From NCBI GenBank assembly GCA_027364875.1, contig DAHXON010000025.1, positions 1-38,939 of the forward strand: DNA of 38,939 bases, in the 5' to 3' direction. The notes below the pieces were generated by a model. It saw only the letters and a program-made list of their open reading frames with translations, had not been told where the DNA came from and ran no database searches. The translations under genes and the position numbers were made by a program. This document shows, in pieces, positions 2,752 to 24,980 of the stretch (its first letter is position 1; each line of letters starts with the position of its first letter). Source of the DNA: Chloroflexota bacterium (GTDB lineage Bacteria; Chloroflexota; Limnocylindria; Limnocylindrales; CSP1-4).

Positions 2752-3384
2752 ATGCCGGATCTCGAGCGAGAGCCCGATACGGATACCGATGCGGGCACCG
2801 ACCCGGTGCTTCCGCCCGGCTACGTGATGGTCCAGGCCCGGACGACGTACCTGGAAATGCTCGAGAACTCCGTGGTCGAACCGCCGGAGGCGCCGGCGGG
2901 CTGCGAGATGCGCCTCTGGCGCCGACCTCCGCCGGGCCAGTACCGGGAGCTGTTCTCCGCGGTCGGGGGACCCTGGGGTTGGTCCGGTCGCCTGCTCATG
3001 ACGGACGACCAGCTGCGAGCCGTACTCGACGACGATCGGATCGAGGTCTGGCGGCTGTACCGGGACGAGACCCTGGCCGGCTTCATCGAACTGGACCGGC
3101 GCGTCCCCGGCGAGGTGGAGATCGTGTACTTCGGCCTGCTGCCCGAGTTCGTCGGGCGGGGGCTGGGCAGCTTCGCGCTCCGGACGGCGATCCACCACGT
3201 CTGGACGGCAGGCGAGGCGGGCCCGATCCGGCGCCTGTGGCTGCACACCTGCGACTACGACAGCCCCACCGCTCTCGCGTTCTACCAGAAGGCGGGCTTC
3301 CGGATCTACGACGAGCACTCCGGCCCGGAGGCCTATCCGGCGGAGCACATTGCTCGTCTGGGCGAGCGGCAGGCCGGCGGCTAG
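2752..3384 (+). CDS. GNAT family N-acetyltransferase
   Basis: 210 residues. Transfers an acetyl group from acetyl-CoA to an unknown amine. After about 45 residues of N-terminal extension, the GNAT core includes LAGFIELDRR, then VEIVYFGLLPEFVGRGLGSF, where GRGLG is the pyrophosphate-binding loop of motif A (about residues 137-141). The motif B-like C-terminus reads DYDSPTALAFYQKAGF, typical of the family. It begins 3 bp after the MBL-fold gene and is probably co-transcribed with it. At its 3' end it runs into hutI: the two TAG stops share the palindrome CTAG, leaving no room for a terminator between these convergent genes. The substrate cannot be read from the sequence. Confidence 0.88.
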   Translation: MPDLEREPDTDTDAGTDPVLPPGYVMVQARTTYLEMLENSVVEPPEAPAGCEMRLWRRPPPGQYRELFSAVGGPWGWSGRLLMTDDQLRAVLDDDRIEVWRLYRDETLAGFIELDRRVPGEVEIVYFGLLPEFVGRGLGSFALRTAIHHVWTAGEAGPIRRLWLHTCDYDSPTALAFYQKAGFRIYDEHSGPEAYPAEHIARLGERQAGG

Positions 3385-4718
3385 CTTCGAACCCCGGTCG
3401 CGCGATCGAAGACGATCCGGCCGCGCTTGACGACCGTCCGGGCAGGGCGCGAACCCAGCCAGTAGGCGAGCTGATCGACCGAGGGGACGTCCCACACGAC
3501 CAGGTCGGCCTGCTTGCCCGGTTCGATCGAACCGATGCGGTCTCCCAGCCCCAGCGAATGCGCCGCGTTGACGGTCACCGCGGTCAGGGCCTCGGCCGGG
3601 GAGAGGCCCATCTCCACGCAGGCGATCGACATCACGAGGGGCAGGCTGACCGTGGGGCTGGTGCCCGGGTTGAGGTCCGTCGCCAGGGCCACCGGAACGC
3701 CGGCGTCGATGAACCGGCGAGCGGGGGCGAAATGGTGCTTGCCCATGAACCAGCTGGTGGCGGGAAGCAGCGTCGCGACTACCGGATGGTTCGTCGCCGC
3801 CGCCGCGAGCGCGGCCACTCCTTCGTCCGAGGGCTCGGCGAGGTGATCGGCGGAGAAGCAGCCCATTCGGGCCGCCAGCTCGGCCCCGCCCGACGGCGCC
3901 AGCTCGTCGGCATGGACCCGGAGCCGCAGCCCCATGGCCAGGGCCGCTTCGAAGACCGCGGCGGTCTGCGCGGCGCTGAACACCCCGGCCTCGCAGAAGA
4001 CGTCGCAGAAGCGGGCGATCCCCTGCTCGGCCACACGGGGCAGCTGCTCCGCGATGACCGCGGCCACGTAGGCGTCCGTGGCGTCGGGACGGCCCCGGAA
4101 CTCCGCCGGGACGGCGTGGGCGCCCAGGAACGTGGGCACCAGCTCGACCGGCCCCTCGCTCCCGAGGCGGCCGATGATCTCGAGCAGCCGCAGCTCCGTC
4201 TCGACGTCCAGGCCGTAGCCAGATTTGACTTCGGCCGTGGTCGTGCCGCAGGAGAGCATCTCGTGGAGGCGAGCGCGCGCGCCAACCGTCAACGCGCCGG
4301 AGCTCGCCGCGCGCGTTGCCGCAACCGTGGAGAGGATCCCGCCGCCCGCCCCCAGGACCTCCAGGTACGAGGCGCCGCGCAGACGCATCTGCCACTCCGC
4401 CTCGCGGGTTCCGGCGAACACGAGATGAGTGTGCGCGTCGATGAGCCCCGGCGTGACAAGGCCGCCGCGGGCGTCGAGCCGTTCGAAGTCACGCGCATCG
4501 AGTCCGGCGGCCGCGACGATCGCCGCCACGGCCGGGCCGTCGCCGACGGCCAGGACATCGCCCTTCCAGGCCGCGACCGAGCGCGGCCCCCCGGCCATCA
4601 CGGCGGCATCGGCCTGGTAGCGCCCCCGTCGAAGACCGCCCGCGAGCGTCGCCACGGCGGCCGCGCCCTCGACCAGAAGACCCCGCCCCGCGCTCGGCTG
4701 ACCGCGCCCCTCGATCAC
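3381..4718 (-). CDS. hutI: Imidazolonepropionase
   Basis: Third step of histidine degradation: hydrolyses 4-imidazolone-5-propionate to N-formimino-L-glutamate in the cytoplasm. 445 residues, slightly longer than the usual 400-420. Amidohydrolase hallmarks are clear: TPGLIDAHTHLVFAGTRE with metal-binding His96 and His98, the hutI-specific TTTAEVKSGYGLD (about 159-171), VHADE (His269, Glu272) and ATDLNPGTS (Asp348). The GTG at 4718 is separated by one base from the ftcD stop codon, so the genes are almost certainly translated together; no good later start precedes the conserved N-terminal strand. The product is the substrate of the FtcD encoded just upstream, so hutI-ftcD is a two-step unit. 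It converges with the GNAT gene through a shared CTAG. Confidence 0.95.
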   Translation of the reverse strand: MIEGRGQPSAGRGLLVEGAAAVATLAGGLRRGRYQADAAVMAGGPRSVAAWKGDVLAVGDGPAVAAIVAAAGLDARDFERLDARGGLVTPGLIDAHTHLVFAGTREAEWQMRLRGASYLEVLGAGGGILSTVAATRAASSGALTVGARARLHEMLSCGTTTAEVKSGYGLDVETELRLLEIIGRLGSEGPVELVPTFLGAHAVPAEFRGRPDATDAYVAAVIAEQLPRVAEQGIARFCDVFCEAGVFSAAQTAAVFEAALAMGLRLRVHADELAPSGGAELAARMGCFSADHLAEPSDEGVAALAAAATNHPVVATLLPATSWFMGKHHFAPARRFIDAGVPVALATDLNPGTSPTVSLPLVMSIACVEMGLSPAEALTAVTVNAAHSLGLGDRIGSIEPGKQADLVVWDVPSVDQLAYWLGSRPARTVVKRGRIVFDRATGVRS

Positions 4719-4719
4719 C

Positions 4720-5682
4720 TCATCGGCCCCGTGCCGCTTCCAGGCGCAGCTCCAGGGCCTGCATCGGGGAGAAGTCGCGCAGCTTGAGGAAGCCCGCGGC
4801 GCCGGCAAGGCGCTCGAGCTGGGGCAGGCGCTCGGAGACGCCGGCGTGGTTGGCCACGTCGAGCATCGCGTCGATCGGGGCCAGGCCGATCAGCTCAGAC
4901 TCGGCGAGATGGACGCCGTCCTCGGCCGCCTCCGCCCGAACGGCCTCCCAGACCATCCACAGCGGCGTGACCCGAAAGTCGAGCAGATTCATAGAGACCT
5001 GGGCCCGGTCGCGTTCTTCGATCCAGAAGCCGTTGGCCTGGACACGCGGCAGCCCTCCGCTCGACTCGCGGATCCTCCGGGCAATGCGCTTGGCCAGCTC
5101 GACGTCCCGACTCTCCAGGTTGATGTTGTAGGCGATCAGGAAGGGTCGGGCGCCCACGGCCACGGCTCCCGCGGTCGGGTGGATCTTCGCCGGGCCGAAA
5201 TCCGGTGCGCGGGCGGGCTCGGCGATCGAGCTCTTGAGCCCCTCGTACTGGCCGCGGCGCACGTCGGCGAGCCGCTGGCGGAAGGGCGAAGTGGCCGCTT
5301 CGCCGTACAGGTACACGGGCAGCTGGAAGCGATCCGCGATCATCGAGCCGAAAGTGCGGGCCAGCTCGACGCAGTCCGACATAGTGGCGCCGGCCAGGGG
5401 AACGAACGGGACCACGTCCACCGCGCCGATTCGCGGATGCTCGCCGATGTGCCGCTCCATGTCGATCTCGGCGACCGCGACCGCGACCGTCTTCTCGAGG
5501 GCCTGGAGGATCGGGGCCGCCTCGCCGGCGATCGTGAGCACCGAGCGGTTGTGGCTCGGATCGCTCGTTCGATCGAGCAGGAACGCACCGGGAACGCTCT
5601 CCACGGCGGCCGCAAGCTTGTCCACCACTTCGAGCCGTCGGCCTTCGCTGAAGTTAGGTACCGACTCGACGAGCTTCGCCAC
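4720..5682 (-). CDS. ftcD: Glutamate formimidoyltransferase
   Basis: Transfers the formimino group of N-formiminoglutamate to tetrahydrofolate, giving glutamate and 5-formimino-THF. 320 residues, matching the transferase half of mammalian FTCD. It has the signature VESVPNFSEGR (5-15), DPSHNRSV (41-48) and GEHPRIGAVDVVPF with His82 in the position of the known catalytic histidine. The cyclodeaminase half is absent here; the separate fchA at 24.2 kb probably supplies that activity. The start is GTG 5682, preceded by GGAGGAAGC, a strong ribosome binding site; the frame runs on to 5781 without a better start. A TATCTT at 5769-5774 could be a -10 box giving a leader of about 80 nt. Use of this enzyme means no HutG or HutF type hydrolase is needed. 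Confidence 0.95.
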   Translation of the reverse strand: MAKLVESVPNFSEGRRLEVVDKLAAAVESVPGAFLLDRTSDPSHNRSVLTIAGEAAPILQALEKTVAVAVAEIDMERHIGEHPRIGAVDVVPFVPLAGATMSDCVELARTFGSMIADRFQLPVYLYGEAATSPFRQRLADVRRGQYEGLKSSIAEPARAPDFGPAKIHPTAGAVAVGARPFLIAYNINLESRDVELAKRIARRIRESSGGLPRVQANGFWIEERDRAQVSMNLLDFRVTPLWMVWEAVRAEAAEDGVHLAESELIGLAPIDAMLDVANHAGVSERLPQLERLAGAAGFLKLRDFSPMQALELRLEAARGR

Positions 5683-5902
5683 GCTTCCTCCATGCCGGCC
5701 GGGCGGGGGCGCCGCCGCTTCCGGATCGATCGCTGCCCCGCATGCCCGATCGACGCGGCCGAGGCTCAAAGATACCCACAAGTAAGGGTTGTTTCGCCAT
5801 CGGTAACTACCTGACCGGGCAATCCATACCTATCGTGGCACGAAACAATGCGACGAGTCGCTTAGTGCCTGAATCGTCCGGTACGGGATAGCATGCCGCG
5901 CG

Positions 5903-9381: not shown

Positions 9382-11082
9382 TCAGTCTTCCGGCTCGAGC
9401 ATGGGGATCCGGACGCCGCGCTCGCGGGCCACCTCGATGGCGCGCTCATAGCCCGCGTCCGCGTGCCGCATCACCCCCGTGCCCGGGTCCGTGGTGAGTA
9501 CCCGCTCGAGCTTGCGCGCCGCCAGCTCGGTTCCGTCGGCGACCACCACCATGCCGGCATGCTGGGAGTAGCCGATTCCGGTGCCGCCGCCGTGGTGGAT
9601 GCTCACCCAGCTCGCGCCGGAAGCCGTATTCACCAGGGCGTTGAGGAGCGGCCAATCGGCGATCGCGTCCGAGCCGTCGCGCATCGATTCGGTCTCGCGG
9701 TTGGGCGAGGCCACGGACCCCGCGTCGAGGTGGTCGCGGCCGATGACGATCGGCGCGGACACGGCCCCGGTGCGGACGAGCTCGTTGAAGGCGAGCCCGG
9801 CGCGGGCGCGCTCCCCGTAGCCGAGCCAGCAGATCCGGGCCGGCAGGCCCTGGAACGGCACCCGGGCCTCGGCCATCTCGATCCATCGCCGAAGCGATTC
9901 GTTCTCCGGGAACAGCTCCAGGATGGCCCGATCCGTGGCGAGGATGTCGTTCGGGTCGCCCGACAGCGCGGCCCAGCGGAACGGCCCCTTGCCCTCGCAG
10001 AAGAGCGGCCGGATGAACGCTGGCACGAAGCCCGGGAAGTCGAAGGCGTTGGCGACGCCGGCGGTCTGAGCCTGGGCCCGGATGTTGTTGCCGTAGTCGA
10101 ACGTGATCGCGCCGGCTTTCTGGAGGGAAAGCATGGCCTGCACCTGCAGGGCCATCGAAGCCATCGCCTGGCGGACGTACTCGTCGGGCGCGGTCTTGCG
10201 AAGCTCCGCGGCAGCGGCGACGGGGAGCCCTGCGGGAACGTAGCCGTTGAGCGCGTCGTGAGCGGACGTCTGGTCGGTCACGGCGTCGAAGCGCTCGCCC
10301 CGGCGGACCAGCTCGGGCTCCACCTCTGCGGCGTTGGCGACGAGGGCGATCGACTCCGCCCGGCCGGCCGCCGCAGCGGCTCGAGCCCACGCGAGCGCCT
10401 CGTCGAGCGAGCCCGTCAGACGATCCACGTAGCCGATGTCGAGGCGCCGCTTTGCCCGTGCCTCGTCCACCTCGATGACAAGAGCCACGCCCTCGTTCAT
10501 GGTCACGGCCAGCGGCTGGGCCCCGCCCATGCCGCCCAGGCCCGCGGTCAGGGTCACTCGTCCGCGCAACGTCCCGCCGAAGTGCTGGCGGGCCAGCTCC
10601 GCGAACGTTTCGTAGGTGCCCTGGAGAATCCCCTGCGTGCCGATGTAGATCCACGAGCCCGCGGTCATCTGGCCGTACATGGTCAGGCCGGCGCGCTCGA
10701 GGCGCCGGAAGTCGTCCCAGTTGGCCCACTTGCCGACCAGGTTCGAGTTGGCGATGAGAACCCGAGGCGCCCATTCGTTCGTCCGGAAGACGCCGACCGG
10801 CTTGCCCGACTGGACCAGGAGCGTCTCGTCGTTCTCGAGCCGCCGGAGCTCGCGGACGATCGCGTCGAAGGCGTCCCAGCTGCGGGCCGCGCGACCGGTT
10901 CCGCCGTAGACGACCAGGTCGTCGGGCCGTTCCGCAACCTCCGGATCCAGGTTGTTCATGAGCATCCGGAGGGCCGCTTCCTGGACCCAGCCCTTGCAGG
11001 TCAGTTCCGGGCCGCGGGGCGCTCGCACGGTTCGCGGGCCGGACGTGGGGGATCGTCGAGAGGAGCCAGTCTGGATCGCCAT
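9382..11082 (-). CDS. hutU: Urocanate hydratase
   Basis: Second step of histidine degradation: adds water to urocanate to form 4-imidazolone-5-propionate, using tightly bound NAD+ as an electrophile. 566 residues, against about 555 in the family. Conserved blocks in order: [20 protein letters not shown] (about 30-49), [13 protein letters not shown] (about 57-69), [16 protein letters not shown], and [20 protein letters not shown] with the active-site-region Cys. The start is ATG 11082, with GGAGG about 6 nt upstream; the frame runs on beyond 11.9 kb, but that part is antisense noise over other genes. The lipoprotein gene ends 107 bp upstream on the same strand and DUF1992 follows 21 bp downstream. 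hutH and hutI lie several kb away on either side, so the hut genes are not one operon. Confidence 0.96.
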
Positions 11083-11189
11083 CGGAGGCCTCCGAAGGGG
11101 GCGGTGCTGCGCCTGTCGCGCTGGATTCCAGTGTGCGCCCGATGCGCCGGGCGCGCACGCGGCGCGTCGGAGGCCGGGGGGGCCGCCCG

Positions 11190-11810
11190 TCAGTACAGGT
11201 TGGTGATGAGAATTCGGCCGAGATCCCTGGGCCCGTTGTCGAACATGGAGAGGTACTGGCCGTCGCCGAGCGCGAGCGAGTAGACGACGACCCCACCGTT
11301 GCAGTCGGAGATGTCGACCAGCCACACGCCGATCTGGGCCTGACTGGAATCGCCGATGCCGTTGGCCTGCGAGCAGGCCTCCGCGGCGTAGTTGTCGATC
11401 CACTGCGAATAGGCGTCGCCGTTCTGGAATTCGGGCTTGAAATGCACGATCTCGAGCCGCAGGAAGTCGGTGTCGAGCAGATCGCCGGCCATCGCGGCCG
11501 CTAATCGGTCGATCCTCGTCGGAAGACCAGAATCTTCCATGCGCTGCTCTTCCTCGCCCGCATCCTCGGTCAGGGCGACCCCGCCGACGGCGATGGGCAG
11601 CCGCTTGAGCAGAGTCGGGTCGATCCGCAGGCCGTACTGGCCTACGGTTCCGTTCGGCCAGGGCGTCGCCCCGATGTAGTACGACGTGGGTCCGGGCGAG
11701 GGAGTGGCCGAAGAGGTTCCGCAGCCGGCCAGGCCGGCCGCCGCCAGAGTGCACGCGACGCCGATCAGCCAGAATCGGCGGAACGCCGCGACGCCGAAGG
11801 CGCGCCTCAC
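11190..11810 (-). CDS. Putative lipoprotein of unknown function
   Basis: 206 residues. An arginine-rich start ([12 protein letters not shown]) leads into a hydrophobic core and the lipobox LAGC (Cys at about residue 28), then a short Ser/Pro/Thr stalk. The mature part has no recognised family; it contains four cysteines at most, and a central acidic segment ([14 protein letters not shown]). It should be anchored on the outer face of the membrane. The start is GTG 11810, whose GTGA overlaps the TGA stop of the GNAT gene upstream, so translation is probably coupled to it. hutU starts 107 bp downstream on the same strand. Confidence 0.7.
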
Positions 11811-12640
11811 AACTCGCGCCGCATGACTGGATAGCGCTCGTCGTCCACCGCGAGCCTGAACCCCGCCGCCAGCCAGAAGTCCGGGCGCGCAGCCGGAGTC
11901 GCGTCCTCCGGCGCATGAACCTCGGGATAGGCCTCCACCGCGCTGAAGCCCCGGGTGGCGAGGTCCTCGCAGACCACCTCGACCAGACGGGCGGCGAGGC
12001 CGCGATGGCGGACCGCGGACGTGGTGGCGATGCAGGTGATCACCGCCGGAAGCGGCGCCTGCGGCAGTCGCGGGTACAGGTCCCGGAGTCGCAGCGCTCT
12101 CGGATACGCGGAGAGGGGCCCGAACTGGCAGTACGCAATGGCCCGGCCGTCCACCAGGAGGACCCGAGCGTAGCTCCCGAACACGCCGGCACCGCGCGCA
12201 AGGAGCTGCAGCTTCCGGGGCGCCTCCGGCCCGACGACCGGCCGAGCCGGCTTTCGCGGCGCGAACGGGTTGTCCACGGGCGGATCGTCGCGCCCCTCGA
12301 GGAATGGATTCGGGGCCGATTGGGCCGGCGGCGGGGCAAAGGGATTGGACCCGGCTCTGACTGACGGCGCGAACGGGTTCGGGTCCGGCCGCTTGACCGG
12401 CGCGAACGGGTTCGAGTCGGCGGCCGAGACCGCCGCGAGGGAACTCGAGGAAGACGAGGTTGCCGAAGCGCCACGGGTGGGAGCCGGGATGCCCAGCCAG
12501 CTCGGGCGGGCCGCTTTCGAGCCGTGGTCGGCGTCTTCCCAGTAGTCGCAGGTGCGATGGTCGAAACCCGGATTCGCGCACGGGGGAATGAGCCCGAACC
12601 GGGCTTCGTCGGTGACGTCGACGATCTCGATGGCGGCCAT
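11807..12640 (-). CDS. GNAT acetyltransferase with repeated NPF(AP) motifs in a linker
   Basis: 277 residues in three parts. Residues 1-40 contain a Cys/His-bearing segment ([18 protein letters not shown], Cys21 and Cys31). Residues 55-135 form a Ser/Pro-rich linker with five NPF motifs (near 77, 88, 99, 111 and 124), four of them NPFAP. The last 140 residues are a GNAT fold with the acetyl-CoA loop [10 protein letters not shown] (211-220) and a C-terminal FWLAAGF. The substrate is unknown. Repeated NPF motifs are unusual for a bacterial acetyltransferase and could recruit partners or simply be a spacer. Start at ATG 12640; TAAAGT ends 9 nt upstream and may be the -10 box of a near-leaderless message. 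It overlaps the following lipoprotein gene by GTGA. Confidence 0.8.
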
Positions 12641-20003: not shown

Positions 20004-20864
20004 ATGTCAGCAGGGGCACGCGTCGCGACAATCGTGCGCGGTCGCAGCCACGCCGCCGAGGTGGTTCTGGCGGCGTCGCTGGTAGGTCTGATCATCGTCG
20101 AGTACGCGGTGATCGTCCTTCTGCCGTCGACCTGGAACCGCGTCCTCGCTTTCGACTACTGGCCGTACGTGGACGCTGCCTCACGCTGGCTGCACGGTGG
20201 TTCTTTCTATCTGCCGTACCAGCTCTCCGGGCCGTATCCGGTCGTCGAGCACGAGATCATGTACCCGCCCTCGGCGCTCTTCCTTCTCGTTCCGTTCACT
20301 GTGTTGCCCGCTCCCTTGTGGTGGGCAATCCCGACGGCCGTCGCGGGCTGGTTCGTGGCTTCGTACCGGCCCTCGCTCCTGGGCTGGACGGGGATACTGG
20401 CGTGCCTGGCGTTCCCCTGGACGCCGATGCTCTGGCTGGCCGGCAATCCCGTCATCTGGATCGTCGCGGGCCTTGCGGCCGCTCCGCGACTCGGCTGGCC
20501 CGGGGCGATCCTCGCCCTCAAGCCTCAGTTCGCGCCGCTGGCCCTGATCGGGTGGCGGCATCGCTCCTTCTGGATCGCTTCCGTGATCGTCGGGGCGGCT
20601 TCGCTGCTCCTGCTGCCACTCTGGTTCGACTGGCTCAACGCTCTGCGCAACGTTTCGAGCTGGCCCGGCGGGAACCTGGCCTACTGGGTGAACAATCTGC
20701 CGCTCCTCGCGATTCCGCTGATCGCCTGGCTGGCGCGGACGAGTGGCCGGACGCGGACGCCGGGCGCGACGCGGCCGAGCGGCGAGGCGCGGACGCGCGG
20801 CGAGACCTCGGCGCCCGGCGAAACCCAGCCGGATTCCTCCGCCGGCTCAGAGGTCGCTCCCTAG
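20004..20864 (+). CDS. GT87-like (DUF2029) membrane protein
   Basis: 286 residues and about seven hydrophobic segments. An early extracytoplasmic loop, FDYWPYVDAASRWLHGG, is followed by YPPSALFLLVPF, as in GT87 polyprenyl-phosphate-mannose mannosyltransferases, where an acidic residue and the YPP segment mark the family; LALKPQFAPLALIGWR is also typical. It is shorter than classic GT87 enzymes (about 400 residues), so it may be a reduced member. A probable role is adding a sugar to a lipid carrier or cell-surface polymer; this is inference. The tail after residue 250 has Arg/Thr/Gly/Glu-rich repeats. ATG 20004 is supported by GGAGGC 3 nt upstream. It converges with fhs through a shared CTAG. 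Confidence 0.72.
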   Translation: MSAGARVATIVRGRSHAAEVVLAASLVGLIIVEYAVIVLLPSTWNRVLAFDYWPYVDAASRWLHGGSFYLPYQLSGPYPVVEHEIMYPPSALFLLVPFTVLPAPLWWAIPTAVAGWFVASYRPSLLGWTGILACLAFPWTPMLWLAGNPVIWIVAGLAAAPRLGWPGAILALKPQFAPLALIGWRHRSFWIASVIVGAASLLLLPLWFDWLNALRNVSSWPGGNLAYWVNNLPLLAIPLIAWLARTSGRTRTPGATRPSGEARTRGETSAPGETQPDSSAGSEVAP

Positions 20865-22588
20865 AACAGCCCGACGATATTGCCGTCCGAGTCGATGTCG
20901 ATCGACTCGCCGGCCGGGTGGGACGGCAGTCCCGGCATCGTCCGCATCTCACCGAGCAGCGGCGTGACGAAGCCCGCCCCGGCGGAGAGACGGACCTCCC
21001 GGATCGGGACGCGGAAACCGCTCGGCCGGCCCTTGAGAGACGGGTCGTGGCTCAGCGAGAGGTGCGTCTTGGCCATGCAGACCGGCAGGTTGCCGTAGCC
21101 CAGCTCTTCGTAGAGCTTGAGGGCCTTCGTGGCCGCGGGCAGCTCGTCGACTCCGCGGGCGCCGTAGATACGGACGGCGACCGTCTCGATCTTCTCGCGG
21201 AGCGGGAGATCGTCCGGGTAGAGGAGCCGGAACTCCGGGGCGCCCTCCTCCGCGGCATCCCAGACGGCGTGGGCCAGGTCTTCGGCGCCCGCACCGCCGT
21301 CGGCGAAGTGGCGGCTCACCACCACGTCCCGCGCGCCGGCGGCCATGGCCACTTCCCGGATCGCGGCGACCTCCGCGTCCGTGTCGCCGGGGTAGTGGTT
21401 GACGGCCACGACCACGGGGACGTTGAAATGGCGGACGTTCTCGATCTGGGCCGCCAGGTTGGCGGATCCCTTTCGGACCGCCTCGACGTTCTCCTGCCCC
21501 AGGGCCGGGTCCAGCGGGCGGCCCGCGACGATGCGCCCGACCCCGCCGTGCATCTTGAGCGCCCTAACGGTGGCGACCATGACCGCGGCGTCCGGCCGGA
21601 GCCCGCTCTGGCGGCACTTGATGTCGAAGAACTTCTCCGCGCCCATGTCGGCGCCGAAGCCGGCCTCGGTGCAGGCGATCTCGCAGGTGGCCAGGGCGAG
21701 CCGGTCGGCCAGGACGCTGTTGTTGCCGTGGGCGATGTTGGCAAATGGTCCGCAGTGGACGAACGCCGGGCCGCCCTCGAGGGTCTGGAGCAGGTTCGGT
21801 TTGATGGCGTCGCGGAGCAGGACCGTCATGGAGCCCGCGCACTTGAGGTCTTCGGCGGTGATGCGCCGGCCGTCGAAGCTGGTGGCGACGACCATTCGAC
21901 CCAGACGGCGCCGCAGGTCCTGCAGGTCGGAGGCCAGCGCCAGGACCGCCATGACTTCCGAGGCGACGGTGATCTGCCACTCGGTCTCGCGCGGGTAGCC
22001 GTTCTCGCGGCCGCCCAGCCCGACGATCGCCCGCCGCACCGCCCGGTCGCTGATGTCGACGACTCGCGGCCAGAGGACTCCGAGCGGATCGATGCCCAGC
22101 GGGTTGTTGTGGGTCAGCGAGTTGTCCACGAACGCGGCCAGCAGGTTGTGCGCCGCGCCGACCGCGTGGTTGTCGCCGGTGAGGTGGAGGTTGAAGTCCT
22201 CCATCGGGATCACCTGGCTGTAGCCGCCGCCCGCGGCGCCGCCCTTGATCCCGAAGACGGGCCCGAGGCTGGGCTGGCGGATGCACACCGCCGCCCGGTG
22301 CCCGATCCGGTTGAGACCCTGTACCAGGCCTATGTTCGTGGTCGTCTTGCCTTCGCCGAGCGGCGTCGGCGTGATCGCCGTGACCACGACGTACTTGCCT
22401 CGCCGGCCCTCCTCGGCTGCCTTCGCCTCGAGTCGCTCGATTCCCTCCAGGCAAACCTTGGCCTTGTACGGCCCGTACTGCTCGATCTCGTCCTCGTGAA
22501 GCCCGAGCTCGAGGGCAAGCTCCATGATCGGCCGGGGCCTGACCGACCGGGCAATGTCCAGGCTGCTGGGCATGGGCGATTCGCTCAT
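20861..22588 (-). CDS. fhs: Formate--tetrahydrofolate ligase
   Basis: Joins formate to tetrahydrofolate using ATP, giving 10-formyl-THF; in the reverse direction it can yield ATP from formyl-THF. 575 residues, against about 555. The ATP-binding loop TPTPLGEGKTTT (73-84) is intact, followed by VCIRQPSLGPVFGIKGGAAGGGYSQV in two conserved blocks and HLTGD, all diagnostic of the family. ATG 22588 overlaps the folD stop in ATGA, and GGAGG lies about 7 nt upstream, so it is translationally coupled as the last gene of fchA-folD-fhs. With FtcD and FchA it links histidine carbon to the formyl-THF pool. Confidence 0.97.
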   Translation of the reverse strand: MSESPMPSSLDIARSVRPRPIMELALELGLHEDEIEQYGPYKAKVCLEGIERLEAKAAEEGRRGKYVVVTAITPTPLGEGKTTTNIGLVQGLNRIGHRAAVCIRQPSLGPVFGIKGGAAGGGYSQVIPMEDFNLHLTGDNHAVGAAHNLLAAFVDNSLTHNNPLGIDPLGVLWPRVVDISDRAVRRAIVGLGGRENGYPRETEWQITVASEVMAVLALASDLQDLRRRLGRMVVATSFDGRRITAEDLKCAGSMTVLLRDAIKPNLLQTLEGGPAFVHCGPFANIAHGNNSVLADRLALATCEIACTEAGFGADMGAEKFFDIKCRQSGLRPDAAVMVATVRALKMHGGVGRIVAGRPLDPALGQENVEAVRKGSANLAAQIENVRHFNVPVVVAVNHYPGDTDAEVAAIREVAMAAGARDVVVSRHFADGGAGAEDLAHAVWDAAEEGAPEFRLLYPDDLPLREKIETVAVRIYGARGVDELPAATKALKLYEELGYGNLPVCMAKTHLSLSHDPSLKGRPSGFRVPIREVRLSAGAGFVTPLLGEMRTMPGLPSHPAGESIDIDSDGNIVGLF

Positions 22589-23583
22589 CGCGATCCTCCG
22601 CCGGTCTCGATGCCTTCGGCCTGATCCGTGGCCGCCCGAAGCAGATGCGTGAGCAGGAGCGCATTCGTGAGCGGTCCCACGCCGCCCGGTACCGGCGTGA
22701 TGGCCGCCGCCACTCGCGAGGCCGATTCGAAGTCGACGTCCCCGACGAGCTTCACCGCGCCCGCGCCTTCGCCGTGCGGATCCGGGACCACGTTGATGCC
22801 GACGTCCACGATGGTCACTCCCGGCGAGAGCATCTCGCCCGTGATCAGGCCCGGCCGGCCCACGGCCACTACCAGAATCTCGGCCTCGCGCGTGTATCTG
22901 GCAAGGTCCCGCGTCCTCGAATGCAGGATACTGACGGTGCCGTGCTCGCGCAGGAGAAGCAGTGCCGCCGGCTTGCCCACGACGTTCGATCGCCCGACCA
23001 CGACGACGCGCCGGCCGGAGATCTCGATACCCGAGCGCTTTAGGATCTCGACCGAGGCTTGAGCCGTTGCCGGCAGGAAGCCGTCGTACCCGAGGGACAG
23101 CAGACCGGCGTTTCGGGGGTGGATGCCGTCGATGTCCTTGGCCGGGTCTATGGCGTCGATCACCGTCCGCAGCGGGATATGCGGCGGAAGCGGCATCTGG
23201 ACGATGATGCCGGCGACCTCGGGCTCGCCGTTGAGCCGCTCGATCGCATCGCAGACGACGTCTGCGGTGGCCTCGCTGCCGATCTCCACCAGCCGTCCGC
23301 TGGCGCCGACCCTCTCGCACGTCCGCAGGATCTGCTGGAGATAGACCGCCGAAGGCGCGTCGGCGCCGACTAGGACGATCGCCAGCGTCGGCGAGTAGCC
23401 GTTCCGGTCTTTGAACGCCGCGAATTCGCGGGTCAGCTCGGCGCGGATGTCGGCCGCGATTGGGGCGCCGGCGAGCAGGCGCGCCGTCGGCGGCGCGGCC
23501 GCCGGGGTTGCCCTCGAATCGGGCCCGTTCCGGTCGGCGCTCTCGCGAGCGCCGCTCAGTCGGCCATCCGCCGGCTCACTCAC
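22585..23583 (-). CDS. folD: FolD-family methylene-THF dehydrogenase lacking the cyclohydrolase lysine
   Basis: 332 residues including about 35 extra at the N-terminus. FolD oxidises 5,10-methylene-THF with NAD(P)+ to methenyl-THF and normally also hydrolyses that to 10-formyl-THF. The NADP site is intact (VVVGRSNVVGKPAALLLL, then LHSRT), as are VQMPLP with Gln129 and KDIDGIHP with Asp152. The catalytic motif Y-x-x-x-K, however, reads YLQQI: Tyr81 is kept, but the position of E. coli Lys54 is Ile85 (codon ATC at 23331-23329). The family's PCTP-x-G loop has become PATAQA (171-176). In studied FolD proteins this lysine is needed for cyclohydrolase but not dehydrogenase activity, so this is probably a dehydrogenase only. 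GTG 23583 overlaps the fchA stop in GTGA. Confidence 0.93.
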   Translation of the reverse strand: MSEPADGRLSGARESADRNGPDSRATPAAAPPTARLLAGAPIAADIRAELTREFAAFKDRNGYSPTLAIVLVGADAPSAVYLQQILRTCERVGASGRLVEIGSEATADVVCDAIERLNGEPEVAGIIVQMPLPPHIPLRTVIDAIDPAKDIDGIHPRNAGLLSLGYDGFLPATAQASVEILKRSGIEISGRRVVVVGRSNVVGKPAALLLLREHGTVSILHSRTRDLARYTREAEILVVAVGRPGLITGEMLSPGVTIVDVGINVVPDPHGEGAGAVKLVGDVDFESASRVAAAITPVPGGVGPLTNALLLTHLLRAATDQAEGIETGGGSR

Positions 23584-24248
23584 TCGGCTTCGGGGTCGCG
23601 GGCCTGGCCCGACAGCACGGCTTCCCGGGTTCGGGCGGCGAGCGCCACGATCTCGTGGAGTGTCCGGTCGACGTCGCTCTGCATCTCGCCGGCGAACACG
23701 TCGTCGCCAGTCGCGATCAGGTTGATGAGCACGTTCTCGGCCGCGCCTCTAGCTGCCGCCTCTCCGAGCAGGGCCGCGACCAGTACGTCGCTCGACGCGT
23801 TCACGTTGCTCCGACCGGCCAGCGATTCGGCCGCGTTCACCAGTTCCTCGCAGGCCCGAACGCAGTCCCAGGGGGCCTCCGAAGCGGCCCTTGCCGCTGC
23901 CCGGATGGCGAGCTGGCGCGTTTCCTTCTGCTCCACGGTCTCTCGCGGCATCTTGAGCGCGGCCGCGTATCCGGCATAGGCCTCGGCGTCGCGATCCACC
24001 AGGGCAAGGAACCTTGCCTGGAGGTCGCGGCCGGCCGCGGCGCAGCGTTCGAGCGTGCCTTCGTAGGCCGCGTACTTGGGCCGCCCGGTGGAAAGCCCGG
24101 CGACCATGGAAATCAGTGATGCACCAAGTGCCGCCGCCAGGGCCGAGGCCGATCCACCTCCGGGTACTGGCTCGGACGACGACAGGCGCTCCATGAACTC
24201 GCAGACGGTCAGCTGTGAGAGCGAGGTGTCTACGGGCGCTTGCTCCAT
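23580..24248 (-). CDS. fchA: Formimino-THF cyclodeaminase / methenyl-THF cyclohydrolase
   Basis: 222 residues of the FTCD_C family. The hallmark PVPGGGSASALAAALGASLISMV (about 28-50) is complete, and DAEAYAGYAAALKMP and SNVNASSDVLVAALL follow as in the family. Members either deaminate and cyclise 5-formimino-THF to methenyl-THF, as in histidine breakdown, or act as methenyl-THF cyclohydrolase (FchA of serine-cycle methylotrophs and some clostridia). Both roles fit here: FtcD supplies formimino-THF, and the FolD encoded next has lost its own cyclohydrolase lysine. It is first in fchA-folD-fhs, whose genes overlap by 4 nt each. ATG 24248 has TACAAT exactly 6 nt upstream, so the operon mRNA is probably leaderless. 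Confidence 0.92.
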   Translation of the reverse strand: MEQAPVDTSLSQLTVCEFMERLSSSEPVPGGGSASALAAALGASLISMVAGLSTGRPKYAAYEGTLERCAAAGRDLQARFLALVDRDAEAYAGYAAALKMPRETVEQKETRQLAIRAAARAASEAPWDCVRACEELVNAAESLAGRSNVNASSDVLVAALLGEAAARGAAENVLINLIATGDDVFAGEMQSDVDRTLHEIVALAARTREAVLSGQARDPEAE

Positions 24249-24254
24249 GCAACG

Positions 24255-24260
24255 ATTGTA
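24255..24260 (-). promoter_or_regulatory. Leaderless -10 box of the fchA-folD-fhs operon
   Basis: TACAAT on the minus strand, exactly 6 nt before ATG 24248. This near-consensus -10 box would place the transcription start at the start codon. No TTGACA lies 16-18 bp upstream. Confidence 0.6.
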
Positions 24261-24389
24261 GGGAACGGACGAGTGTTGGAGTGCATCACTCTGGCCGGCG
24301 ATACGATCGGGTGGTCCGCCGGTGGTGCGGCCGCCAGCCACCGGGGCCCCCGGCAGGCGCAGCCGGACGGAGAGGCGGTGGAGGATGCC

Positions 24390-24980
24390 GTGCAGGCGAT
24401 TTCCCGCCAGACCTCTGAAGTGATGAGGGACCTGGAGGCCCGGGACGCGGCCGACCGGCTCGACGGGACTTTTCACTCGGCTCGCTTGAGGGCGATCGGG
24501 CCGCAGACCGGCGAGTTCCTGCGAACGCTGGTTCTGGCGACCGCGGCGAAGGTCATCGTCGAAGTGGGCACCGGCTCGGGCTACTCGGCGTTGTGGCTTG
24601 CCCAGGGCGCGACGCAAACAGGCGGCCGGATCACCACGTTCGAGACCGATCCCGCGAAGGCGGCCATCGCCCGAGAGACCTTCCGCACCGCCGGCATCGA
24701 GGACGTGGTGGATCTCCGCGAATCCGACGGAGGCGCGGGCCTCGCCGGCTTCGATGGCCAGGCGGACATCGTCTTCCTCGACGCCGAGAAGGCCGACTAC
24801 ACTCGATTCCTCGACCCGGCCGTCCGGGCACTCCGCCGCGGCGGCTTGCTGGTCGCCGACAACCTCATCTCGCACGCCGCCGACCTCGTCGAGTTCAGGG
24901 AGCGGGCGCTGTCCGACCCACGGCTGACCGGACTCGTCGTGCCCGTGGGTCAGGGCGAGCTGCTCGCCGTTCGACTCTAG
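24390..24980 (+). CDS. Class I SAM-dependent O-methyltransferase
   Basis: 196 residues of the catechol/caffeoyl-CoA O-methyltransferase-like family (Methyltransf_3). The SAM-binding motif I is VIVEVGTGSGYSALWLA (about 55-71), the acidic end of strand 2 is TTFETDP, and FLDAEKADY (129-137) with VADNLI (155-160) supplies the divalent-metal-binding Asp residues typical of this family. The methyl acceptor is unknown. The start is uncertain: GTG 24390 has GGAGG five bases upstream and is chosen, GTG 24378 and an upstream ATG at 24240 are in frame. It diverges from fchA and converges with the DUF6504 gene, 27 bp apart, over a short GC stem. Confidence 0.82.
   Translation: MQAISRQTSEVMRDLEARDAADRLDGTFHSARLRAIGPQTGEFLRTLVLATAAKVIVEVGTGSGYSALWLAQGATQTGGRITTFETDPAKAAIARETFRTAGIEDVVDLRESDGGAGLAGFDGQADIVFLDAEKADYTRFLDPAVRALRRGGLLVADNLISHAADLVEFRERALSDPRLTGLVVPVGQGELLAVRL

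Follow-up and report, generated by a model that had tools for sequence, protein, structure and literature searches.

Probable division of the two FolD activities between a lysine-less FolD and FchA in a Chloroflexota lineage, and recurrent linkage of altered FolDs to FTCD_C proteins

With the sequence of a Chloroflexota bacterium of the class Limnocylindria at hand (contig DAHXON010000025.1 of assembly GCA_027364875.1, 38,939 nucleotides, the whole of which is called the window here), we aimed at understanding a FolD that has lost a catalytic lysine and whose gene is joined to fchA and fhs. We propose that this FolD is very probably a methylene-tetrahydrofolate (THF) dehydrogenase only, that FchA is the methenyl-THF cyclohydrolase, and that FchA probably also acts as a formimino-THF cyclodeaminase. 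This proposal builds on the residues of FolD, the linkage of folD to fchA across the class and the gene content of related genomes, and it agrees with the first-pass annotation of the window, which had suggested that FchA takes over the second step of FolD.

The window FolD scores over the cut-off with both Pfam domains (PF02882, 194 bits; PF00763, 105.5 bits), and its AlphaFold model (mean pLDDT 90.3) agrees closely with known FolD structures (TMt 0.96 with 4b4u_A and 0.90 with E. coli 1b0a). The counterpart of E. coli Lys54 is Ile85, which aligns gap-free with the lysine in the five FolDs of known structure in the alignment; the motif reads YLQQI, and the wider stretch YLQQILRTC contains no nearby lysine. 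Tyr81, Gln129 and Asp152, equivalent to E. coli Tyr50, Gln98 and Asp121, are retained and the loop reads PATAQA, all as the first-pass annotation had described, along with the four-base overlap of the fchA stop and the folD start. Replacing this lysine in E. coli FolD (K54N) leaves about 19% of the dehydrogenase activity and no cyclohydrolase activity that can be detected (PMC5688156), in line with the role that had been ascribed to the lysine. A sequencing or assembly error at Ile85 was considered and rejected, because the same isoleucine is read in 20 other genomes of the genus. The overlapping GTG is the likely start of FolD, since no in-frame ATG, GTG or TTG lies between it and the conserved domain. 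Among the NCBIfam models, the best FolD match is NF010785 (293.4 bits, cut-off 396); no cut-off is reached among the 25 models listed of the 30 matched, and all 25 carry "bifunctional" descriptions. A second intact folD, which had been raised as a possible objection to the split, was looked for and not found; this is the one FolD detected in a genome of about 90% completeness.

The first-pass annotation had further suggested that loss of the lysine might track with fchA linkage, and the findings across the class fit the split. FolD was detected in 39/41 near relatives and in 107/117 class genomes, and FTCD_C, the domain of FchA, in 106/117. The site could be read in 117 distinct FolDs, which come from 116 genomes of the class (ten of these genomes lie outside the 117-genome search set), and in none is it lysine; instead it is isoleucine in families f1 and f3, leucine in f2, leucine or isoleucine in f4, and leucine, valine or isoleucine in f5. 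The loss is thus inherited across the class. Counting one genome plus residue signature as a unit, fchA lies directly upstream of folD in 107 of the 116 class units, is absent there in six and meets a contig edge in three. Furthermore, the Gln98 equivalent is kept in 0/34 FolDs of families f3–f5.

Outside the class we read the site in 110 further genomes of the phylum, a chosen set from which no phylum-wide frequency is claimed, since it comprises 30 top-scoring loci (biased towards lysine), 30 loci from 32 mostly low-scoring genomes (biased towards its absence) and 60 hand-picked regions. Here 52 genomes are Lys-less, 56 Lys-bearing and two mixed. FTCD_C matches, classed manually by E-value and length of the open frame among the matches listed (which do not include G249), are strong and without a long frame in 46/52 Lys-less vs 2/56 Lys-bearing genomes (p 3e-21, uncorrected for kinship). 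Long-frame matches, probably fused FTCD, occur in 1/52 and 17/56, weak ones in 3/52 and 10/56, and FTCD_C is absent from 2/52, from 27/56 and from both mixed genomes. FTCD_C adjoins 38/61 Lys-less but 0/59 Lys-bearing FolD units in this part of the phylum.

Named genomes from many phyla, which were not used to form the idea, point the same way. Among the best 80 FolDs of 591 relatives, a selection that yields no frequency, 77 have the lysine and three lack it, these being from a Chloroflexota, a Roseiflexaceae and a Clostridiales metagenome-assembled genome (MAG). Fifty of the 80 genomes (L267–L313, L338–L340) were searched for FTCD_C, which is present in 3/3 Lys-less vs 8/47 Lys-bearing ones (p 0.008). 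With 79% and 71% identity to same-phylum rows, the FolDs of named Ardenticatenia and Anaerolineae fit the placement of this phylum in Chloroflexota. In the Clostridiales MAG, open reading frames place folD between nusB-like and xseA-like frames; FTCD_C lies on contig C107, and the scan saw none on the folD contig.

A second route to the same linkage appears at Gln98. Among 140 Lys-bearing FolD rows this position is glutamine in 135 and glutamate in five, and all five of the latter, from four Bacillota genomes, stand beside or are fused with FTCD_C. The fusion, from Paenibacillus catalpae (L361:1426-2952, minus strand), is a protein of 509 aa that keeps Lys54 and has Gln98 changed to Glu, with FolD domains at residues 15-129 and 139-287 and FTCD_C at 307-484. 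Human enzymes mutated at Gln100 lose cyclohydrolase activity. E. coli FolD Q98H is left with about 1% of the cyclohydrolase and 8% of the dehydrogenase activity (PMC5688156). Altogether, in the bacteria sampled, FTCD_C adjoins 0/124 FolDs that have both Lys54 and Gln98 (11 undecidable) vs 81/107 that lack either (1 undecidable). Of the eight Lys-bearing named genomes with FTCD_C, five hold an altered FolD: in four it has Lys and Glu for Gln98, and in the fifth, the Anaerolinea MAG G428, it is a second, Lys-less FolD beside FTCD_C. The stretches read from the other three (G391, G393 and G411) show no altered FolD.

We also considered that the window FolD could still be bifunctional, with another residue replacing Lys54, such as Arg87 or, as in the YLHKI of some relatives, a lysine at the preceding position. 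Several f1 loci do have a lysine at the neighbouring position, yet the window protein has none nearby, and Gln98 and Asp121 have drifted in Lys-less FolDs (changed in 56 and 30 of 183) vs 5 and 0 of 140 Lys-bearing ones. Such drift would follow from a loss of the second activity, and we regard a retained bifunctionality as highly improbable.

The partner protein, FchA, matches PF04961 with 183.9 bits (E 3e-54, cut-off 24.5), and its nearest solved relative, 7vg4 (E 7e-32), is named methenyltetrahydrofolate cyclohydrolase. In an alignment of 163 rows, three of them proteins of known structure, FchA keeps the residues conserved in FTCD_C (P29, G30-32, M48, D87, P101, R111, A122, P126, D154 and N176), at two of which the solved T. 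maritima protein deviates. The genes fchA, folD and fhs all lie on the minus strand and are joined by two four-base overlaps, and the one between fchA and folD may give FchA and FolD equal translation. A scan for promoters and terminators returned a single weak promoter-like site, located at the 3' end of fhs, and detected no terminator. While most f1 and f2 loci have fhs next to folD, those read from families f3–f5 show fchA-folD with no fhs beside it.

Could FchA instead be a cyclodeaminase of histidine degradation only, with the second step of FolD proceeding spontaneously or 10-formyl-THF coming from Fhs alone? Window genes hutU, hutI and ftcD pass their curated cut-offs as parts of a formiminotransferase (FT)-type Hut pathway and share the window with fchA; fhs adjoins folD; and E. 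coli mutants without cyclohydrolase survive, K54N growing very slowly (PMC5688156). However, urocanase is found in 22/41 relatives (G024 and every one of the 21 in the window's genus) and in 0/16 genomes of family f2, which nevertheless have FTCD_C in 8/11 genomes searched. Hence histidine cannot be the sole reason for fchA, and its retention for histidine only was rejected. The absence of an adjacent fhs in f3–f5, and the placement of FTCD_C next to, or in one protein with, FolDs changed at Lys54 or Gln98 but beside none of the intact ones, likewise argue against this alternative, which we consider unlikely. The two-input role that the first-pass annotation had imagined for FchA is plausible nonetheless: formimino-THF is its likely second substrate in the window's lineage, since the window carries hutU, hutI and ftcD, and FchA is the sole FTCD_C protein found in the genome of about 90% completeness.

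Several observations weigh against a division of labour between FolD and FchA. FchA reaches 151.8 bits against the cut-off of 275 of the NCBIfam FchA equivalog NF045657 so that formally it does not rank as an equivalog; nor does the sequence of an FTCD_C protein by itself separate cyclohydrolase from cyclodeaminase. Methenyl-THF hydrolysis can be spontaneous (PMC5688156). When long-frame and weak matches are included, any FTCD_C is found in 50/52 Lys-less but also in 29/56 Lys-bearing genomes of the phylum set. FTCD_C was not found in the Lys-less genomes G377 (96% complete) and, within the class, G021 (91% complete), and G153 (87% complete) is another exception among the Lys-less genomes. Finally, the counts are high but mostly reflect one ancient event, because in a 244-row FastTree phylogeny (columns 54 and 98 removed, the class reduced to about one row per genus) the lysine is lost in only three changes: a clade of 100 rows, a tandem-copy FolD pair and the Clostridiales FolD. 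Loss of either Lys54 or Gln98 takes four changes, and a coupling with about four origins therefore offers too few for a tree-corrected test. Three independent pairs on well-supported branches differ in FTCD_C content the same way as in lysine in 1.5 pairs on average, the opposite way in 0.1 and not at all in 1.5; for adjacency the figures are 0.7, 0.0 and 2.3. With three to four independent pairs, mostly without a difference in linkage, significance is out of reach.

Two further exceptions, G174 and G223, have a Lys-less FolD beside a Lys-bearing one that could supply the second step. In both (L209, L210) the two folD genes lie in tandem and no FTCD_C was found in the genome; possibly the labour is divided here between two FolDs.

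Residues, linkage and gene content are what we observe, and the enzymatic activities that follow from them in our proposal are predicted. FolD would act as a methylene-THF dehydrogenase only, Ile85 standing in place of the lysine needed for methenyl-THF hydrolysis while the fold, Tyr81, Gln129 and Asp152 remain. FchA, encoded in the same cluster, would interconvert methenyl-THF and 10-formyl-THF, and Fhs would connect 10-formyl-THF with formate. With these roles, fchA-folD-fhs would form a complete module between formate and methylene-THF. In the window's genus, FchA would probably also deaminate the formimino-THF that FtcD makes from histidine.

FtcD itself may have a second task. The FtcD domain is present in 38/41 relatives and 5-formyl-THF cycloligase (5-FCL) in 2/41, and FT-type bacteria are described as generally lacking 5-FCL, which FT is able to replace (PMC3223725); from these counts and that report we infer that FtcD also clears 5-formyl-THF in the window's lineage. 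In the f2 genomes (G025–G040, about 1 Mb), the ftcD domain occurs in 14/16, urocanase in 0/16 and 5-FCL in 1/16, which suggests that FtcD serves the disposal of 5-formyl-THF there.

The widest form of our proposal holds that residue loss and FTCD_C linkage are coupled and have recurred, by Lys54-to-Ile in an ancient Chloroflexota clade and one Clostridiales genome and by Gln98-to-Glu in Bacillota up to the fusion; that FolD and FchA form a functional, perhaps physical, pair; and that FchA also serves as the histidine cyclodeaminase of the window's lineage, where FtcD replaces the missing 5-formyl-THF cycloligase. To this combination as a whole we give even chances.

The coordinates of the features are collected in Table 1. 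Beside fchA, and divergent from it, starts an O-methyltransferase-like frame (PF01596; window 24240-24980, plus strand). In five f2 loci (L141, L030, L139, L140 and L146) fchA and folD share one reading frame with a single TAG between them (5/5); in L028, L029, L031, L101 and L103 they are out of frame with each other, and L032 does not contain both genes. The FolD-like frames of L260 and L261 (G241 and G255, family f42) match in tblastn over the C-terminal part only. FolD pieces shorter than 200 aa were dropped, as were L142, L260 and L261, three rows that lack the site, and some genes are listed under two names (L275 = L355, L293 = L356). A tblastn search of plasmids with FolD gave 298 records, of which the 40 listed hold FolDs that either have no annotation or are labelled bifunctional or dehydrogenase/cyclohydrolase.

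Table 1. Positions and predicted roles of the window features discussed in the text
Feature	Position	Strand	Reading	Basis
folD	22585-23583	-	predicted monofunctional methylene-THF dehydrogenase, 332 aa, GTG start	Pfam PF00763 and PF02882, AlphaFold/Foldseek
Ile85 codon ATC	23331-23329	-	position of E. coli Lys54	sequence reading and alignment
fchA	23580-24248	-	222 aa FTCD_C protein, predicted methenyl-THF cyclohydrolase and formimino-THF cyclodeaminase	PF04961
GTGA overlap	23580-23583	-	fchA stop/folD start	sequence reading
fhs	20861-22588	-	formate-THF ligase (predicted), third cluster gene	similarity to relatives
ATGA overlap	22585-22588	-	folD stop/fhs start	sequence reading
ftcD	4720-5781 (frame; start uncertain)	-	glutamate formiminotransferase (predicted)	TIGR02024, 349.9 bits, cut-off 221.25
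hutI	3381-4808 (frame; start uncertain)	-	imidazolonepropionase (predicted)	TIGR01224, 450.5 bits, cut-off 298.15
hutU	9382-11034 (matched part of frame 9382-11916)	-	urocanate hydratase (predicted)	TIGR01228, 974.9 bits, cut-off 375, residues 295-839

By default, annotation calls FolD bifunctional; if our proposal is true, this label would be wrong for a large Lys-less clade, and FchA would be an unrecognised but needed step. The residue state would then predict mono- or bifunctional FolD wherever genomes are annotated "bifunctional". Since carolacton needs Lys54, E. coli K54N FolD being insensitive to it (PMC5688156), Lys54-dependent inhibitors of this kind should fail on Lys-less FolDs. The Gln98 route and the FolD-FTCD_C fusion would moreover offer a direct way to test channelling of the two steps.

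The split between FolD and FchA is already known in principle, and the lineage-wide residue coupling, the second route and the fusion are the added parts. In our searches of the open-access literature, outside which most subscription papers lie, we found no statement tying the loss of FolD Lys or Gln98 to FchA and no description of a FolD-FTCD_C fusion. The closest solved relative of FchA, 7vg4, is presumably the Fch of Methylobacterium extorquens, and the two have conserved residues in common. In that organism, however, fch is paired with mtdA and not with folD (PMC9618320). Acetogens group the same three genes, as in the fhs-fchA-folD clusters of Tepidanaerobacter acetatoxydans (PMC3584212) and Clostridium autoethanogenum (PMC9618320, PMC9040625), but there the order is fhs, fchA, folD and the setting is the Wood-Ljungdahl pathway. 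The relatives studied here resemble bacteria with FT-type histidine degradation (PMC3223725) in having the FtcD domain and mostly no 5-FCL, and differ in that f2 genomes retain FT in the absence of urocanase. Yeast NAD-dependent Mtd1 (1edz), called monofunctional in the titles of papers, matches in a profile search (E 8e-25) but is far more distant from the window FolD than other solved FolDs. It presumably lacks the equivalent lysine and glutamine. We know of no FTCD_C partner of yeast Mtd1. In Clostridium perfringens, FolD reportedly (Aluri et al. 2016) acts as dehydrogenase only and occurs together with FchA and Fhs. Both systems would have dehydrogenase and cyclohydrolase as two proteins, FolD and FchA, in an organism that also has Fhs. 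The Chloroflexota-type enzymes make one large Lys-less clade, and the split described here is old and widespread and appears to have arisen more than once.

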